From positions 1,469,764 to 1,533,763 of the forward strand of contig NC_092583.1 in the NCBI RefSeq assembly GCF_037975245.1: DNA of 64,000 nucleotides, given 5' to 3'. This DNA is from Apostichopus japonicus. Lineage: Eukaryota > Echinodermata > Holothuroidea > Aspidochirotida > Stichopodidae. The notes under the pieces were generated by a model. That model made no database searches. It saw only the letters and a program-made list of their open reading frames with translations, and had not been told where the DNA came from. A program made the translations under genes and the position numbers. Shown in pieces: positions 4,586-63,952 of this stretch. Within the stretch, counting starts at the first letter, position 1, and every line of letters starts with the position of its first letter.

Positions 4586-5815
4586 ACTGTACATATGCAC
4601 GCTAGTACTAGTAACATATATATTGATCTTTTCTAGTCGGTCTGTCTGTGTGTGTGTTTTTTTCTTCGCTTCCTTTTCTCTTTTGCATTACTGTAATTTT
4701 ATATTCAGGCATAAATCTATACCGTGACCGCTGATCTAACAAAAACTTCCAAATCTGTAAGGCACTTCAGCTTATCTGTGAAACAATCGCATTTAGCCTG
4801 GATGGCAGAAATTGACAATGCTACAAGGCATACAACTGCACAGTACATAACATTAATGTATGCATACATGTGTGGAACATCCCTTGGCTTTGAAGTAGTT
4901 TTCACACTATATAGTGTACTTCTATCAATAATTCTTTATGTCCAAACCCCCCCTCCCACCCCCCCCCCCCATGTTGACAGCATACTAACTGTAGTATGAC
5001 TAGACAAATTTCAGTATATGAATCAATTGATTTCAATACCGAAGTACTGTAACCAGCCAAAAATCTTGAATATTTTCGATGCATTTCTTGCAAGTAATAC
5101 TTTTAAGATGAATTTTGCTTCTGGATAAGAAACCCTTTATCGCAAATCTCTAGTCGCAAATCACTGTTGATTATTATTTATTTTATTTTTTTCAAGAATT
5201 CCTAGAACGGAATATTTAAATACTGTAATCAATTTTAGCAATCTTCTTTTGAGTAATGATTACAGGACAATCCTGAGGAAACCTGAATGCTGAAAGTTTA
5301 AGTACAGAAGCTTCATGATTTTCAATAGCATTCATTTATTCTCCAACCCCCCCCCCCCCACTTCCACCCACCACGCACCTCCTTTTGATGTAGAGTAAAA
5401 GTGTAATTAGTTGCTTCCCCTTATCTTGTTCAAAATAGGCAGAGTAAATTATCCACCTCCTTCAGGGAATAATTTATCCAGTACTGCATGGCAAAATGAT
5501 ATGCAACTTGCATATATTATGATCAAATTACAAATCCAAACATTTATGTAGATAATACCATGTATGTAACTGCGGTTTCGGTGTTTGTACATCTTAGAAC
5601 AAAATTTGAGTCGCAAAATGTTTTCCTGACCTGGACAAAATTAGCTAGTCTGGCAAAAATGACATGTACCTCTAGGTTAAAGTGCAACACCTACCATTAT
5701 CTACATATAATTTGAAACAATTAGCAAGGAACCCTCTACAGTAGTTACCTTGCATTGCCCCCTCCTCCCCCCACCCCACCCCACCCGCCAGTTTTGCAAC
5801 AGATCTCCATCTTAC
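4586..5815. other. intergenic or 3' intron of the MGAT5-like gene
   Basis: This stretch lies downstream (on the minus strand) of the MGAT5-like exon and would be its first coding intron if the gene is intact. I searched the minus strand for the next MGAT5 exon and found none. C-homopolymer tracts lie near 4946-4970 and 5346-5360. Confidence 0.5.
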
Positions 5816-6083
5816 CGTAGCTGCCCTCTACATCTGGGATGATCTTTCCCACTCCTCGCCCGCCTTTCTCCAGAGCGACGGCTTTGACATACCGTTTGCT
5901 GAGGTCGAGTATCTTGCCCTTCAGTAGCTGGCTGTCCGTCCCTTCCTCATTGCGATTCAGTAGGATGAAAGACGTCATTGTGTAAAACCAGAGCACGATG
6001 AAAAGGAGGAAGACGAGCCAAGATTTCCTTCCCGAGTAACTAAAGCACCTTCTCCAGCCCCCTCTACAAAATCTGTTTCTCAT
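5816..6083 (-). CDS. MGAT5: N-terminal exon of MGAT5-like N-acetylglucosaminyltransferase V
   Basis: One exon of a type II Golgi membrane protein. I chose the ATG at 6083 because it gives a short basic cytoplasmic tail followed by a single hydrophobic anchor of about 21 residues (residues 21-41, WLVFLLFIVLWFY...). The next block, 'KILDLSKRYVKAVALE', closely matches the stem start of vertebrate MGAT5 (ILDLSKRYIKALAEE). MGAT5 adds the beta-1,6 GlcNAc branch to N-glycans in the Golgi. The exon ends at a good donor, CTACG|GTAAG, in phase 1. The open frame runs on upstream to 6239, so a longer start or an upstream exon is possible. The catalytic domain is not in this window and presumably lies beyond its left edge. 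Assignment is by recognition of the stem motif and topology, not by alignment. Confidence 0.7.
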
Positions 6084-6632
6084 CCTTGCTTTCTCATAGC
6101 CCACCCTAAAGACGAAGAGTTTATCAACCGCTTTTTTTCCTGACTGCGGCAGAAAGAGCTTTGACCTCCATGTTGTCCGTTGTTTTAGGTTTAAGTGTCT
6201 GTGAGATTTAAGAGAGATGAGCGAAGAAATAAAGAACAAATTATTACCGAACTGACGTTTGACCTGTGCCAGGGGTTGCGGAGAAGAAAGACATCATGGA
6301 AATCACACTAAAGTAGCGACACAAGGAGTATCGTATTTCCCTAGAAGTAATTAAACAGTACTGAAGTACTAGTGAAGTCAAATTTTGTAAGAACACGATT
6401 CCAATATACTAAGGAATACAAACTTGCCTGAGCAAATATCAGAGAATAAACTTTAGATATACTGAAGCACCGTTCATGCACATTTGCAGGATGCACAAAA
6501 CCTGCTGCTAATTAATTCCCATAAAGGTTGGGGGGGGAGGAATCTGCATCATAATTAATCACTGATTTGTCACTTCTTTTTGGCACTACTCTAGATATTA
6601 TAAAACTTACTGGTTTATATATATACGAGTGA
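6084..6632. other. upstream region of the MGAT5-like exon
   Basis: Probable 5' UTR, first intron or promoter of the minus-strand MGAT5-like gene. There is a short G tract at about 6530. No clear TATA box or further exon can be supported. Confidence 0.4.
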
Positions 6633-17624: not shown

Positions 17625-18336
17625 TCATGCGGCCCAGCGCGGGAAGATCGCTGTTGTATTGAATTTTATAATCAGCATCACAGGAAATGTTTTGAACCAC
17701 TTATTGTATTCCACATTTATTTTTGGTAGCACATATATGACCGGTGTGCGGATCTTGTGGCTATATGGTGACAAGTACTCGAAGGTGCTTTTATCGATCT
17801 CTTTTGCAGAGAACATATCAATTTGTGTTTCCTGGACTAAAATTTTAGTTTGAAACGTCATATCACTTTTTAACTTTTGGTGGTGACTAGCTAATTGCCT
17901 TTCAATTTCGGCTTGATAGTCTGAGTGATTCATTAAAGCAATGCCTCTACCTTTATCGAAGGGTTTGACAATAATAGAGCGGTCGTTTTTAATTGAATTT
18001 AGTGCAAAACGTTCCGCCTTATGCGTGTTGCTATTGGCGTTTCGGATAGTAACACTTGCCATTTCGGTTTGTGTTGCTTCCAGATAGTCCTCTAGGTTTT
18101 TACTAAAAGTCATGTTAGGTGACCATGTGGGGGGTAGACGGAATTTTGTAATCCCTTTTTGCATTTTATTCTGCATGATGAAGCGGATTCTCATTTTTCT
18201 TTTAAGGTCTTTTAATGACATGAGAAGATCACTTCGTTTAGGTTTTACTGGAGTTGCTATGAACTTCAGACCCTTTCCCAACGTAATAAACTCTATATTG
18301 GACATGTTTCTGTCTGAAAAACAGTCATAAAAAGTA
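17625..18336 (-). pseudogene. Penelope-like reverse transcriptase, N-terminal fragment
   Basis: An open frame of about 235 codons continues upstream of the ATG at 18305. It carries the N-terminal signature of Penelope/Neptune-type retroelements: 'LGKGLKFIATP', then 'LKRKMRIRF', 'PPTWSPNMTFSKNLEDYLEA', 'LNSIKNDRSIIVKPFDKGRG', 'YQAEIERQL' and finally 'VIYVLPKINVEYNKWFKTFP', where the family has LPKIHK. The frame stops soon after, before the palm-domain catalytic residues, and no GIY-YIG endonuclease follows. This is a truncated, inactive copy. The high similarity over a long open frame suggests it is not very old. Confidence 0.85.
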
Positions 18337-18339
18337 GTT

Positions 18340-20596
18340 AAGTAAAATTAGATGAAGCTCGTCGCCTTTTGCCAAGTTACCAGTGTGTGGGCACCATTCT
18401 CGATTGAAACATTACACTTACCTGTAGTGTAATGGTTCGGTCCAATGTCATTGCGCAAGCGCAATGACATCACGTCGTTAGAAAAAAAGTTGGCGATTTT
18501 TACGACAAAAACATTTTTTCCCCTGAAAGATCTGTATGCACGCTGGTTCCAGTCAGTTTTAAACGTGTTTCTGGATATACTCTGATAACATCAATTGTAT
18601 TTGATGGTATTTTAAACCTGTTGTCTTGAGTTGTCTTGAGTTGTCGTGAGTTGACGCTAATTAGTGTGACCCGCTGGCAGTGCCGATGGCTGAATGACAC
18701 GGCCCTTGTATACATAAGGATGTCCCTGTGGAACTGTACCAATATAACAATAGCCAAAGGCTCTTAACTTAAGATCAATGTTAGACATGGCCATAGTATA
18801 TGTCCTAGGCTAACTTAGTCTAACTTTTGAGAAACTTAAGCTACTTATATAGCCTAGGCCATAGGCCTAACTGAGCGCTAGTTAGGTCGGGCCTAAGCTA
18901 GGCTACTATATGCTACTAGTACTGTAACAGTGAAAGTGTAAGGACGTCCCGTATTGCTACCTTCGAACAATCATGCCATGTTATCTTTTAGAGTATTGGT
19001 TATCTAACAAGGTCCGAATCGTTCCCTATATTGGATAAGACTTACCGGTGGAGTTCTTTCAGTAGGCCATCTTAATATTTGTTAACGTAAGCGCTTTGCC
19101 AATAGTACTATAATTAGTAGCTGCCTCACTCAAAGTCCAAACTTCCAGTCTTCTCCTCGGGATGCCGCAGCTTCACAAGTCCCTATAGAAACAAGCAGAC
19201 AGCATCACCCGTTTATTGCCGGATGAGCAGTTACGTATAATAATAGGAAGTACAATGTAACGTGATTTGCAGACAAAATGAACATAAATGGTAAAATGTG
19301 ACGTTAAACTTGACCAAGTCATTTTCATGCTAGCAACATGCTGCAAGAGCAGTATCTTTTGTAGGTAGAGGCGGGGGCTCCCTTTCAGAACAAAATGTTT
19401 TATCCTGCTCATATAAGAACTATATTATTATTGTCCGCACCTATTAATAAAGCACATTCTTATACATATATTTATTAATTTACCTTTTGACAGAAGGGAA
19501 AAACTTGGTTAGCATTAGCAAGAGGGCAAATCTCCCCCGAGGCCCTTAAAAGCAAAACGATTGTTAACAAATAGCAAACACTTTAGGAAATAAAGAACAA
19601 CAGAACTAAAACAAGAGGGGAAATGTAGCAGAAAATAAAAATTATCAACCAAAATGGGGCGAGGGCGAACTAACACTTTACTGAGATGCTGAAACATTAA
19701 AATAAAACGAAATGAATAATATACTTTCCTTGTGGGTCTAGCCGTGAGTTTCTTTTTAAAATGAGGGCCTACTTAGCCTATATTTGAGGATGTTATTACT
19801 TCGGGAGACGTAGAAAAGCCTTTGTGATGCTGTTGAAAGTTACAAGTTCTGGAAGAACATGTACGTATCTTCCAACTTTCCTCGCCAAAATCGGAAGATT
19901 TACAATTTTCCATTGCCAAATAATCAGCACTGGTATAACAAAACTGAAACATTTTTAGGTCTTGACGCGTCACCTCTGCAATTGAAATGGGATCCTAGTA
20001 TTCAAATTAGGGGTCGCTATCCCTTTTATGGCTCGAAAAATGTTTGGGAGGGCTGTCAAACAAATTAGGGCTTGCCAAACTAATCAAAAGAATATAGACC
20101 ATGGATGGGCTACTTCTTGTAGGAAGAAACCTAATTTTCAAATTCCTTAGCCCACACCTGTTATCTACACGCTACCAAGTTCGTAGGTAGTTTTGATGGT
20201 AGTTTTTTGAAACATCCAAATAACAATGTTGCCCAGTTCAAAAAACTGCACTATCATTAAACAGATATTATCATTAACAATAATCATTTAATTATAGTGC
20301 GCCCTCTCTTTTATTCTACCGCTTGAACTACCATACTACCACTATCTGCAAGGACAGGAATATTTGTTTGCGGTATGAAGAAAAAAATAATATACAGAAT
20401 TTGGTCTGCATGATACATGCCGCCAATATTTTTTTCATTCAGATACGTGGAGCTTTTACCACTGACTGGCTGGAACCGCTTCCTACGGGGAGGGGTATGG
20501 GGTCTATGAATTATGGTTTCATGCAATGTCTTAATATGTTCAATTTTACAACATTTCTTGCATACTCGGCTAATATCTACTTAAATATCTACGCTA
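18340..20596. other. intergenic, nothing recognised
   Basis: No conserved coding block. A GTTGTCTTGA unit is repeated about three times at 18619-18652, and TAGGC-rich patches lie at 18805-18905. A palindromic spot lies near 18448-18470 ('CATTGCGCAAGCGCAATGACAT'). Confidence 0.5.
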
Positions 20597-42609: not shown

Positions 42610-44750
42610 TTACATATCTAAGTGTATATTGTGACTGTCATTGTTCAGAAGCACTGGATTTGAGGACACAGAAGGCATGGTTGAACTTCCGGGGTAACTG
42701 ATGGATAGGCAACTGTCCTCCAGTCGGGCATTTCCATTATCACCTTGCGAAAAGATGTCTTTATTCTCAGCCTCGGTTACAATTATTGGTGAACCCCCCA
42801 GGGTTGGTAAAACCTGGCTTGATATCTCAGAGTTTCGTTCCATATTATCGAAGACATGCCGGAGATGTTCCAATATCTTTTCAGACATCGTTTGGAGGAA
42901 GTGGCCGTGATGGATATTGCTCTGCTTGTACAACCGTCCGATCAGATAGAGGTCGTTGGTGGATTTCATGAGTGCTCTGTACTCATTGCCGAATACCTCC
43001 GAGCCTAACGCCAGCTCTCTAGACAGGAAAGAATCCCAAAAGACTGGTCGTTTATCTCCGTTGTTCCCGCCTGATAATTTTCTAGCACAACGTCGGATTA
43101 CTCTAGAAAACCAGACTAAAGCGAAGCTCTGGAGGATTATATCCGTCGCATACGCGACAGTCAATGCGTAGACAGAGATGACAAATTCCATGGCGAACGA
43201 TACTGTACAAGTAACGTAACGTTGAGGTATCGTTCGGCACTGCAAGAGGTTATTAGCATCGTCGTGCAAGTCGCAAACGAACGACGAGAGGGAGAAAACG
43301 TCATGTTTAACATGTAGGACGACCAAGGCTCCGAAAAGGACAATGTCTATCAAGATGTCGAAGACTTTCCGCGTGACGTAGAGGTAATAAAGCCCTTTGC
43401 GTTTGGCCCGCTTTTCCACTTCCTCGAGACCAATCTTCTTCATGTTAGCCATCCAGGTTGTATACCGATTTATGACATTGAAAGCTGCTGCAGTTTGATG
43501 ATTGGCACTGCTTTCATTTTGCCGTTTGTTATGACCCTCGTACATCTCGACCGCCAACGATGCACCTCGCATTTCATGTTGAAACTCAGCAACTGTGGCT
43601 ACCCCGTTGACTCCTTTTCGGATGTCGGCCCCGCAAAATAACCGCCATAATGTTTGAGGAATGGCGCGAAGGACGACGAACAAGAACAGAAACCACAAGG
43701 AATACCGATACACAAAGAGCGATGGTATATATTTTGCTTCGTGCAGGTCGTCTCGCCAGTTGTTTTTGACGGCATTAGTGTTGCAAAAAACTTCACTTTG
43801 AGAACAGTTAATCTGAGAACAGTTCGTGCCCTTGGCTGCGTCTAAGCAGAATTCCGTGATGTACTTCTCTTGAGATGACGTAATAGAATACTCCTTGTCC
43901 GTATTTACGAAGCAACGTCCCAAAGATCTGTCGCCTGTTCGGGTTAAACAAACATTAAACAAAATGTTTTTCAACGGAAATAGAACTGTATATGAATGAA
44001 GGTTGCTGACAGTGTAAGCAGTGTGACACATATGTGACAGTGCAGGTAAAAGTAATAGGGGAAAACGCCCTCTTTGGTATCTTGTTGCCCGAACTTTGGA
44101 TATGGTGGATTGAATGTGACCTCCCCTGACCGGCCAAAACCCTCCCTCACTCCAGGGAGAAGTGGATCGCAGTATTTTCTGTAATTTTATCGTGGTAGAG
44201 TTGTCTTTTTATGAAGGGCTGGGGTTGGGGGTGTACACAAGCAGCCCCCCCCCCTCCCATGATCCGCACATGATATTGAATAAGTTTGACGAAAGTTTGC
44301 CGGATTCTATGCTTAGTGTATAGAAAAAGTGGCGCTATTGAAAAATAGAGCTCAGCGATGGTCGCTTTGACACGGCATGAAGAGCCTCGTTAAGCATTCC
44401 ATTTGATTTAAAACACACACTTGGCTGATCCCTAAACCGACAATCGTGTTGATACTTTTGGGCAGTCAATTTTGGCAAACGTTTTAACCCTACAGGGACA
44501 GAGATGTGGTGAACACAACCATGAAGCCGCCTTTATTTTAAACTTCAGAATTAAACAGGTTACCTTTACCTAATGTTGCCGTGATGACGTGCAATATGAA
44601 GAGACCAATAGGAAAGCCCTGTGTCATCCAGAAACCCATACTGTCTGCTGGCAGGTTTGTACTGACGGAGGACGATTTGAGAATTTCCCATCCTAAGGCA
44701 TCCTTCATACCCGGAAACATCTCGGCGATTAACTTAGGTGCTTTCTCCAT
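42610..44750 (-). CDS. innexin/pannexin-like four-helix channel protein A (two coding exons)
   Basis: Exons 44570-44750 and 42610-43934 join at ACATTAG|GTAAAG..ACAG|GCGAC in phase 1, giving 501 residues. Predicted helices: about 40-60, 138-160, 250-268 and 306-335. Loop 1 has C68 and C90 in 'GRCFV..YITEFCLD', like the innexin 'G.PI.CW..YV.NYCW', plus C99, C104 and C111 and two NCS sequons. TM2 reads YRYSLWF..LRAIPQTLWRLF, equivalent to innexin YYQWV..YIPRYLWR. Loop 2 has C281, C293 and C303 (VCDLH..VTCTVSFAMEFVI), equivalent to innexin CDF..CVLPINLFNEKI. 'TNDLYLIGRLYKQSN..HGHFL' (386-406) matches the innexin post-TM4 block. Inference: plasma-membrane gap-junction or hemichannel subunit. LRRC8-type channels share the fold, but the second loop looks more innexin-like. 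A TCTTCAG acceptor just upstream suggests a non-coding first exon. Confidence 0.8.
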
Positions 44751-46164: not shown

Positions 46165-46555
46165 CTGCTTAATAATAATAATAACAACTAAGATTTATAA
46201 TGCGCTAATTATAAACAAAATAGTTGTCAAAAGCGCCATACATATAAATATGAATAGAAAGAAAAGCAAAAATAATAATGCAACGATGAAATATAATTAC
46301 AAATCAAATTGAAAAAATGTTTAGCATAGAGGTAGGTGTTTAGTTTAGATTTGAAAAGTGATTTATTAGGTATACATTTTAAATGGTTTGGGAGGGAATT
46401 CCACAATTTGGGACCAGAAACTGAAAAAGCACGGTTGGCATAAGTAACCCCATTGGTCCTAGGTTCAAGGAGGGTAATAAATTTTGACTGACGGGTGGCA
46501 CGCTTGTATTGCTTTACTCTTAGAAGTTCTGAAAGGTAGTTTGGAGCCTGTGTAG
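46165..46555 (-). pseudogene. 5'-truncated LINE, reverse transcriptase C-terminus and 3' end
   Basis: On the minus strand the frame contains 'RTNGVTYANRAFSVSGPKLW' then 'NSLPNHLK' and 'FKSKLNTYLY', the conserved C-terminal tail of CR1/L2/Jockey-type reverse transcriptases (RxFSVAGPxLWNSLPxxLR..FKxxLKTYLF). A short 3' region follows with 'GGCGCTTTTGACAACTATTT' and an (ATT)n tail at 46168-46185. The palm domain is missing. The frame ends normally. Confidence 0.8.
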
Positions 46556-46574
46556 GAGAATGTGTAAAAGTAAG

Positions 46575-46640
46575 TTGGCCTGACGTTTCGATCCTAGCAG
46601 GATCTTCTTCAAAGGCTAAATGACAAGTAACAGTAACAGA
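46575..46640 (-). ncRNA. possible degenerate hammerhead-like motif of a Penelope-type element
   Basis: Minus strand: 'TTTGAAGAAGATCCTGCTAG' and 'GATCGAAACGTCAGGCC'. The order is a CUGANGA-like box (degenerate), a GATCC/GGATC stem with loop TGCTA, then GAAAC and GUC. Penelope-like elements are known to carry minimal hammerhead ribozymes with this layout. The first box deviates at the catalytic C, so activity is doubtful. It lies next to the LINE fragment, not next to a Penelope ORF. Confidence 0.35.
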
Positions 46641-48349
46641 CGGGACAAAAACACGCACAGAATACAAATACAGACGTATTTGTATTTTGCAAGATTCTTC
46701 AAGCTTTTTGTGGGGCATGTAACATATTGTACTGCAACTTGCAGTCTAGACCAACCACTGCCAGTCCTGCCTGGAGGTTACATACCTACCCTAACCACAG
46801 CCACCATCATAGCTTATCTATATTATGCCCATAAATGAGCTTATATAACAGATTGTTCTACTAGAGTACTATAAACAGACATACTGCATTATTGCTGTTG
46901 CATACGTCCAGAGCCTCAACAACTGGAAGATCCTGTCTCGTGTAACTTATTAATATATGATAGTTATTTATTAATTGTCTAACAAGTTTATAGGGCATCA
47001 CTCTTCAGTCTCTTGCTCTTTAAACTTTGCCATGTCCCCAGCTCTCCCCTCCCCCGCTCCCCAATTTGAAATCCTTAGTAATTCTCTGGGAATGTAATAA
47101 ATAACTTCCATGTTAAGACAGATTTCACCTGTACTCAATAGTTGGCGATTTCCTTACACCCACTTGACTAAGTATATATAACGCATTAGGTGTAGATTGC
47201 TATAAACAATTATTATTTGTCCATGTGGTTATGCGGTTGTAATATATAATTATTGGGCAGTAAATATATGAAAGATCCCTATAGTTGAGCTTATACGCTA
47301 TAACACAATCCCAGGGTGTAGTGAAATATCGTGATTCCTCACCCCTTCCACTTCGCCGCAAAATGAGAGCGCTGAAATTTCCCACCGTAATATTTTCCAC
47401 ATGCATTTATAGTCTAGTCGTGTCTCACCAGCTAGAGAGTTGTTATTATGGGTCTCACAACCTATTTTACAACAGTGGCGTCATATATCGTTTCAGTGAC
47501 ACTGTACAATGTAGCGATAGGCGTTTAAAATAGTGAAATTTATTAGAAACAAAGTAATTTACACACTTACCAGAAGTACCGTACGGTTACACGTCTAAGA
47601 ACTGCGGATTATTACAACATTAAAACTAACATTCGTGAATGTTAATATATATGATTTGGTCAACGAGTCTCTCCCTCTGTCTGTCTGTCTGTCGGTCTGT
47701 CTTGGTCACTGTATCATCCCACCAAGGAAAACAACACACCAATGCAAAAACACTTCTATTGAAACTACGAACCGAAGAGCAGTTTTCTGAGAAAACTGAA
47801 GTGTGGGTCTGTTTTTCGTTATTCCAGAATATATATATAGCGACTTGCATGGTTTTAAACTGTACGATGTAATGTCAGTATCACGTGCTTATATAGCTAT
47901 TGCAACCGATGGGGAATTCCAGCTTTCACTTCAAAACATCAAACGTAGGTGTGTGGGAAGTTGGAGTTGGACGCCCCATCCGGTTTCATGCTATAGCATA
48001 TATAGCTACACTAAATGTGGGAATTTAGATTGTTCTATATTTAAGGGCTCAATTTCGTCAAAATGATGATTACATATCAATTTGCGATGCATATAGTAAT
48101 GATGTAGTGATCACATCATAATAATGGCTGGAAATGATTCATGCAGGGCAAAAAAGAAGTGTTTCGGTTCTTTTGATAATACAAAGTATTTCAGGTCGAA
48201 ATAAGAAGACGCAAATTCTAGACACACAAAAATGAAGGTAAAATAATAGTAAAAAAATTAATAAAACAAGCCACACGTTGACTTCAGAGTACACTCTCGT
48301 CATATACGGAACTTTAAAACAATCAAATCGCATTTTGTAGGAGAGAATT
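46641..48349. other. intergenic, nothing recognised
   Basis: No gene seen. A short (CTGT)n run lies at about 47678-47702. Confidence 0.5.
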
Positions 48350-49989: not shown

Positions 49990-50923
<934 letters not shown>

Positions 50924-61652: not shown

Positions 61653-63558
61653 ATGGCCGACGTAGCTAAACTGCTGAAAGAACTATTACCAACTTTGAAT
61701 GAAGTATTCGAGAAGGAAATATTGATATCGGGGGTCATTCAGACAAACCTACCTGCTGATAACTTTGGGTTCTGGTTGACCCAAGGGGTGCCATTCGGTC
61801 TCATATTTATACATCTTCTGATGGCTGTGTTAGGTAATTACGGTTGGTCGTTGTTGTTGTTGTTTTTGTTTGTTTGTTTCTTTTGTTTACTGCTAGTCCC
61901 GCAATGATTTCAGTTAGGTCTTTCGTCTCAAATTATAATAGCCTACAAACCAAAACCAAACTTGGAAGAGGATCTTATCGGCTGCTTGATCCATGTATCG
62001 TTTTACGGTATAGTTAAGATATAAATTGTATACATATATATTGACAAAAGTGTTTTCTGCGTGGGATCGCGGGTAGTTGGGTGATTGTAGGGTGTTAGGG
62101 GAGGGGCGAGGTTATGTTCATGGGTCGTGGATAGGGGTGCGTTTAAGGCGGGGTTTTAATGGGCCTTCTTAGAATAAATTGAGATAATTCCGATTGATTT
62201 AGTGTTAATTCTGGATTCTTTGTTCTCTCGTAATATCTTGACTAGGTGAAAGAGATGTCGGCAGATGTTTTGTACCAAAGGTCGAAGGTCAACCGCTCAC
62301 TCAATCACAAATACAATACATAACCGAGATGTGCTTGGATCAGGCTACACATTATGAGTGTTTTGACGAAAGCAACGGAGAATTTAAAGATGTGTGCCGC
62401 GCCTCTCCATGTGACAACATGACCGAAACTTTGCACATAAATAACACGTATCCAAATTCAGATAAAACGAATGTCTTTGAAACTCTTTTCTTTTATCGTT
62501 ACTACGTTTGGTTTCTTGTCGCTTTCACTTTTCTACGTGCTCTGCCTCAAATCGTATGGAAACTATCCTATACCGCTGATGTAAGGAAGGCCATCCAGGA
62601 CATAGCGGTTATTGCTGAATTTCAACACGCCATGTGCGGTGTGATGTCGCTCGTGAGTGGGGATAGCACCGGCGAAATGGTGGCCAGTACTTCGTCGTCC
62701 AGCATCAATACGAATTACAAATATCCAAAATGGATGAAATCTATGAACAGAATCGTCCTTGAAGAAGTCAGCAAACGAGCTTCAAAAGTGATCCTCTTCC
62801 GTGCTTACGTCATGCGTAAACTTGCCGATATAATTTTAGATTTGGTAATCATCGGTACCTTTATTTGGTTTCAGTATGATCGTACACCGTTTGACCAAAT
62901 AGTATTCGTTTGTGATTTACACGGTGATCGCGACAACATCTTCCTATGTGATTCTATACACAGACGGTTTGTACCGTGTACCGTGTCGTTCGGTTTCGAG
63001 TTCATGATAACTGCTTTTCTCGTATTTTTTATCATGGTAGGTGACTGCCTCCTACAACTTTTCGTGACTTTGGCATTTACGAGGGTGGGCCATCGGATAA
63101 TACGCAAATTGACTTGCGGCTATTGGTTTGGGAAAGCAGTTCTTTATTGGGATCCGTTCATCTCTCAAGAACTTGAACTTAATCAAAACAAGCAATGGAT
63201 GCATTTTGACCAATCTTTTATGCACTCACCGAACGATCTCTATCTTGTCGGTTTAATGTACAAGCAGAGTAGCGTAATGCATGGCCACTTTCTGAAAATG
63301 ATGGCCGAGAAAATGCTCGAACAGCTTCGACCAGCGTTTGATTATCTTAGACAAACGGCTGAGCACAATTCTAATCCATCCGTGTTCAGATCTAGGTCCC
63401 GAATTTCGACAAATCTCAGAGATGATGATAACGACAGATCTGAAGATGACACAACCCGTGATCCACCGGAACAATCCTCTCAAACTGAACAAACAGGGTT
63501 TGATTTTGAAGGAAGCTCACAATTTTCTCAGTACAGCGTACCGTATTCTCATCTTTAA
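61653..63558 (+). CDS. innexin/pannexin-like four-helix channel protein B (two coding exons)
   Basis: Exons 61653-61833 and 62246-63558 join at GTGTTAG|GTAATT..ACTAG|GTGAA in phase 1, giving 497 residues. The first exon is 181 bp, exactly as in gene A. Helices are predicted at about 40-60, 145-166, 253-270 and 308-337. Loop 1: C68 and C90 in GRCFVP..YITEMCLD, plus C99, C111, C116 and sequons NMT and NNT. TM2 has YRYYVWF and LRALPQIVWKL. Loop 2: C283, C295 and C305 with VCDLH..FVPCTVSFGFEFMI. The block SPNDLYLVGLMYKQSSVMHGHFL (388-410) follows TM4. The Ser/Asp-rich C-terminal tail is cytosolic. The canonical innexin YYQWV is replaced by YYVWF. Inferred role: gap-junction or hemichannel subunit at the plasma membrane, paralogue of gene A. 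A TCCTAG acceptor at 61616 hints at an upstream non-coding exon. Confidence 0.8.
61834..62245 (+). other. intron of innexin-like gene B
   Basis: 412 bp, GTAATT to ACTAG. It begins with a (TTG)n-like run. Gene A's intron (43935-44569 on the minus strand) interrupts the same codon, so the intron predates the duplication. Confidence 0.8.
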
Positions 63559-63702: not shown

Positions 63703-63952
63703 TTACTTACTTACTTTTACTTACTTTTACTTACTTTTACTTACTTTTACTTACTTTTACTTACTTTTACTTACTTTTACTTACTTTTACTTACTTTTAC
63801 TTACTTTTACTTACTTTTACTTACTTTTACTTACTTTTACTTACTTTTACTTACTTTTACTTACTTTTACTTACTTTTACTTACTTTTACTTACTTTTAC
63901 TTACTTTTACTTACTTACTTACTGACTTACTGACTTACTTACTTACTGACTT

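Follow-up and report, generated by a model that had tools for sequence, protein, structure and literature searches.

Introduction

Electrical coupling between cells of starfish embryos has been recorded in Asterias, and neither connexin nor pannexin was found in eleven echinoderm genomes, Apostichopus japonicus included, or in one crinoid read set, according to a 2019 survey (PMC6391747). Echinoderm innexins have since been reported from transcriptomes, which is said in that work to solve the paradox (Welzel & Schuster 2022; PMC8769644). The introduction of a 2023 ctenophore paper still counts innexins as yet to be identified in the genomes of echinoderms (PMC9949713). Here, we analyze a stretch of 64,000 nucleotides from the sea cucumber A. 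japonicus (contig NC_092583.1, positions 1,469,764 to 1,533,763; hereafter the window), which carries two paralogous genes, A and B, encoding membrane proteins with four predicted helices. The initial annotation, made from the DNA letters, had described gene A as a divergent innexin-like gene of a probable echinoderm. Its premise that surveys had found no connexin, innexin, or pannexin in echinoderms is out of date, since Welzel & Schuster (2022) report echinoderm innexins, and P0002, a Holothuria relative of the pair, carries the UniRef label 'Innexin'. No further paper on echinoderm innexins or pannexins was recognized by title and start of abstract in the open-licence PMC collection, a scope that leaves subscription papers and preprints outside.

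Profile comparisons with the innexin/pannexin/LRRC8 superfamily

The relationship of the gene pair to known channels emerges from profile–profile alignment. An hhalign comparison of the family profile (six of seven rows kept by the program) with one that combines PANX1-3, LRRC8A, and five innexins gives a score of 44.8 (E 5e-5, probability 67.5%). The match covers 122 columns, which extend from ahead of transmembrane helix 1 (TM1) via loop 1 to beyond TM2, in register with the topology. Column shuffles, permuted within windows of 10 or 20 with the coarse hydropathy pattern kept, never reached this score, neither in the first set (0/239, best 40.4; 239 of 240 scored) nor in the second (0/449, best 37.9), and the reversed profile scores 15.4. 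Connexin (two sequences) and CALHM profiles, both smaller than the combined one and run in local mode only, remain near chance, with 16/60 and 5/60 shuffles reaching their scores. Of the nine sequences in the combined profile, two originate from a database search, INX-6 from PDB letters, and six were entered by hand, with a check against PDB for two of these, PANX1 and LRRC8A.

Individual groups match less well. Pannexins alone give an E of 0.023 (reached by 2/120 shuffles), a first innexin set 0.11 (21/120), a more varied innexin set 0.0027 over 38 columns (run without shuffles), and LRRC8A alone 0.25 (57/120), while addition of LRRC8A to the pannexins improves the E from 0.023 to 2.1e-4. As the single-group profiles are weaker, the signal belongs to the superfamily rather than to one branch. 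In global mode, the match is at chance (44/120 for pannexins, 46/120 for innexins). A protein search with Drosophila Inx2 contributed little diversity to the innexins: It returned 3143 matches at E up to 10, and the 120 listed are 76–92% identical, the named species being insects by our own recognition.

The Pfam Innexin family (PF00876), which a Drosophila Inx2 used as control matches with 433.5 bits, gives no match with gene A (as P0005), gene B, P0001-P0004, P0006, or the family consensus. Likewise, no Pfam connexin match was obtained for the family proteins and consensus, and no leucine-rich-repeat match in Pfam scans of the family proteins. The innexin-like identity first proposed for gene A is partly supported, by the combined pannexin/LRRC8/innexin profile but not by PF00876. 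In the host genome, PF00876 finds nothing at E up to 10; absence is not demonstrated by this, because all 14 control genomes were silent too. Three weak host matches to the LRRC8 profile PF12534 (best E 0.162) were judged to be noise, two of them falling in 51-residue frames that adjoin frames of NACHT-like appearance by eye.

Topology, motifs, and loops

After GT..AG phase-1 splicing, the two minus-strand exons of gene A (Table 1) yield a product of 501 residues, which is identical letter for letter to P0005 in a string comparison, an NCBI 'uncharacterized protein' of A. japonicus. An echinoderm host is thereby confirmed. Hydropathy analysis recovers the four hydrophobic helices expected for gene A (near residues 38–60, 130–157, 251–281, and 303–336), and helices occupy the same four places in both structure models, although at low confidence. 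The predicted orientation of these helices places both termini in the cytoplasm and two loops outside the cell. The blocks GRCFV..FCLD, IPQTLWRL, CDL..CTVSF, and DLYLIG..HGHFL singled out by the initial annotation are all present in the spliced product. Conservation excludes a chance origin, as the same blocks are found in gene B and in relatives 37–51% identical to A. The canonical YYQW is indeed altered in gene A, where it reads YSLW, while YYxW (as YYVW or YYIW) occurs in four of the seven family rows, including gene B but not A.

Motifs were compared in an alignment of 15 sequences, seven of which represent the family. The places that match the pannexins are the paired cysteines of loop 1, P-x-x-x-W-[KR] at the end of TM2 (7/7 family rows), FVC..C of loop 2, and ND-L after TM4. 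Counterparts of two conserved cysteines per extracellular loop align with the pannexins; altogether, the family carries five cysteines in loop 1 (6/6 full loops) and three in loop 2 (7/7). Moreover, loop 1 contains an insert relative to pannexins. Between its anchors, loop 2 spans 20 residues in the family, 16–17 in pannexins, and 47–49 in innexins. Glycosylation sequons are found in loop 1 of all seven sequences and in or beside loop 2 of three. Counted from the beginning of the ND motif, the seven proteins extend for 92–115 residues. At the position of PANX1 Trp74-Arg75, which we take to be the constriction (a role at which PDB titles hint), the family aligns a variable residue followed by Ser-Gln (6/6 full loops). 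A wider and less anion-selective mouth is therefore predicted.

Structure models and phylogeny

A model with P0002 as first sequence, built without innexins or pannexins, reached a pLDDT of 41 (low confidence). In Foldseek, its first 31 PDB matches are pannexins (best E 8.6e-5, PANX1), followed by LRRC8A and LRRC8C from rank 32, whereas the model with gene A as first sequence has no significant match. The low-confidence P0002 model thus points to a fold that is probably of the pannexin/innexin superfamily. Neither a significant best match outside this fold family nor a structure other than four-helical was found, two outcomes that the initial annotation had named as speaking against its proposal; as for the disulfide-capped loops it described, the models are too weak to judge.

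A phylogeny of 15 sequences was built from 322 of 687 columns, with P0001 omitted because it duplicates B at 97% identity. It unites the sea cucumber-type rows in a single group (support 100/100) on a stem of 2.64 changes per column. Their placement among pannexins, LRRC8A, and innexins is weakly supported (69/81 with innexins), and the approximately unbiased (AU) test retains groupings with pannexins (p-AU 0.353) and with LRRC8A (p-AU 0.198), the latter having a very long branch (3.81).

The gene pair and its relatives

Gene B encodes 497 residues with 38% identity to A, and the introns of both genes interrupt the same codon in the same phase. The two genes are divergently oriented (A minus, B plus) with approximately 16.9 kb between them, on an assembly of 671.6 Mb in 35 contigs. 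A host genome search with the protein of gene B exon 2 at E up to 0.001 returned A and B only (two matches, three candidates scored), and tblastn with seven family members revealed no third copy in the window, all remaining matches having an E of 0.42 or worse. As only the partial protein P0001 (97% identity) turned up for gene B, and no NCBI-sourced protein matched it at high identity, gene B may be absent from public gene annotation. About 150 bases past its stop codon, window positions 63707-63916 hold 21 near-perfect copies of the 10-base unit TTACTTACTT.

Searches of approximately 5.8 billion proteins, queried with gene B exon 2 and with a five-row alignment, retrieved six relatives: two from Holothuria, one identical to A, and three others. 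Every relative with a species name is a sea cucumber, and neither sea urchins nor starfish were among the named sources in this search by 5-residue words. Because such words had to be shared and candidate scoring was limited (for the alignment query, only the 7982 candidates sharing most words were scored), distant relatives could be missed. P0002 and P0003 of Holothuria leucospilota, both listed with a longest contig of 39,178,348, may be linked as well. Recorded as a 1,4-alpha-glucan-branching enzyme, P0003 joins a CBM_48 stretch to a complete channel protein and is probably a product of gene-model merging. In P0006, the first ~38 residues resemble intron read-through; they were kept in the family profile, where they should only blur the TM1 part.

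Table 1. Positions of genes A and B within the window.
Feature	Position	Strand	Remarks
Gene A exon 1: start codon, N-terminus, TM1	44570..44750	-	Exact P0005 sequence after splicing; conservation extends to B and to exon-1-carrying relatives
Gene A intron, phase 1, GT..AG	43935..44569	-	Splice sites read; matches the B intron in position and phase
Gene A exon 2: loop 1, TM2, cytoplasmic loop, TM3, loop 2, TM4, C-terminal domain, stop	42610..43934	-	Open frame, identity to P0005, family profile match
Gene B exon 1 (paralog of A)	61653..61833	+	
Gene B intron, phase 1, GT..AG	61834..62245	+	
Gene B exon 2	62246..63558	+	97% identical to P0001, 59% to Holothuria P0002

Other features of the sequence

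Elsewhere in the window, an open frame at 5745-6293 (minus strand) matches the N-terminal domain of MGT5A just below threshold (E 1.2e-5; 25.6 bits vs. a cut-off of 27) and is perhaps an exon of an MGAT5-like glycosyltransferase. Long frames at 49990-50688 (plus), 46227-46745 (minus), and 17625-18347 (minus) appear by eye to be reverse-transcriptase remnants of retrotransposons; among these, only 49990-50688 matched Pfam (DUF6451, E 1.4e-4, below cut-off). Positions 50684-50923 form a near-perfect repeat of 80 copies of GAT. Two near-identical 391-residue frames (in loci L004 and L005, from ~1962, plus strand), located ~344 kb apart on one contig, resemble segments of NACHT-type immune receptors by eye.

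Discussion

On balance, we favor the interpretation that A and B are subunits of a very divergent large-pore channel of the innexin/pannexin/LRRC8 superfamily, operating mainly in a non-junctional manner. Judged by sequence, the lineage would so far comprise sea cucumbers and three further proteins. In each subunit, the sequence reads as four membrane helices, with cysteines concentrated in the two extracellular loops and a conserved domain behind TM4; cytoplasmic ends, disulfides, and fold may be added by deduction or from the low-confidence model. By analogy, several subunits would most likely ring a central pore in the plasma membrane. As in pannexins, this pore might pass ions and small metabolites such as ATP, with either the N-terminal segment or the C-terminal domain acting as the gate. 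Its main mode would likely be that of a pannexin-like hemichannel, since every sequence carries a sequon in loop 1 and loop 2 is short. Against non-junctional use, seven innexins with such sites are reported to form junctions (PMC8769644). Weak evidence against the superfamily relationship is that innexins, pannexins, and LRRC8 went unmatched in sequence searches of Pfam and PDB; apart from the CBM_48 stretch fused to P0003, all matches were to unrelated entries and fell short of the cut-off (lowest E 0.032 for Pfam and 0.83 for PDB). This counts for little because accepted relatives also match poorly by single-sequence search: With Inx2 as query, INX-6 is recovered but no pannexin up to an E of 10, and LRRC8A reaches a pannexin with an E of 0.35.

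The same proteins might instead serve mainly as gap-junction channels that dock via loops 1 and 2 and supply the coupling of echinoderm embryos, a role we regard as possible though unlikely. The coupling of Asterias embryos without dye transfer (PMC6391747) would fit this role, as would the five plus three loop cysteines of the six sequences with full loop 1, which could suffice for a rigid docking surface, and, weakly given the silent controls, a host genome without PF00876 match. However, the loop-1 sequon is present in 7/7 sequences, and loop 2 has the short length seen in pannexins, channels regarded as non-docking (PMC8769644); moreover, the named relatives are sea cucumbers only, whereas coupling is recorded in starfish. 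We are similarly doubtful, and slightly more so, that the pair represents a deeply diverged ambulacrarian lineage which supplies echinoderm coupling and has been missed by innexin searches through drift (stem ~2.6) rather than loss.

An LRRC8-like subunit of a volume-regulated anion channel (VRAC) that lacks leucine-rich repeats appears improbable. LRRC8A and LRRC8C enter the fold list, LRRC8A strengthens the pannexin profile, and its grouping with the sea cucumber rows survives the AU test, but pannexins outrank it in fold, its profile alone is at chance, its branch is very long, and no leucine-rich-repeat match was found in the Pfam scans. Even less credible is an unrelated four-helix family that merely resembles innexins, for which the low-confidence model would have been drawn to a memorized fold: Across both sets, not one of the 688 shuffles attained the profile score, the alignment follows the topology in register, and the connexin and CALHM controls are near chance. 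Finally, a pseudogene or annotation artefact can practically be dismissed in view of the intact frames in both paralogs and their relatives, the shared intron, and the identical NCBI gene model.

As a linked pair in a 35-contig assembly that is invisible to PF00876 yet related by profile and, probably, in fold, A and B are concrete candidates for expression and illustrate how such genes get missed. They also add a non-chordate deuterostome lineage for dating the divergence of loops and glycosylation in the superfamily.

Among known systems, the vertebrate pannexins (PANX1-3) provide the best fold match, albeit to a low-confidence model, and share the short loop 2, the FVC..C frame, the ND-L motif after TM4, P-x-x-x-W in TM2 (PPLFW in PANX1), and extracellular glycosylation sites (for pannexins as given in PMC8769644). 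In contrast to their 2+2 loop cysteines, the sea cucumber family has 5+3, together with the loop-1 insert and Ser-Gln in place of PANX1 Trp74-Arg75. With the invertebrate innexins, the family has in common the TM2 block Y-Y-x-W..P-x-x-x-W-[KR] and what follows, but it differs by the missing PF00876 match, the much shorter loop 2, and YYxW in only 4/7 rows. The LRRC8 (VRAC) pore domain appears in the fold list below 31 pannexin rows and shares the ND motif after TM4, whereas the family lacks leucine-rich repeats and LRRC8A alone does not rise above chance by profile. The echinoderm 'innexins' of Welzel & Schuster (2022) likewise have four TM domains and are innexins by the authors' criteria (PMC8769644), but they stem from transcriptomes.
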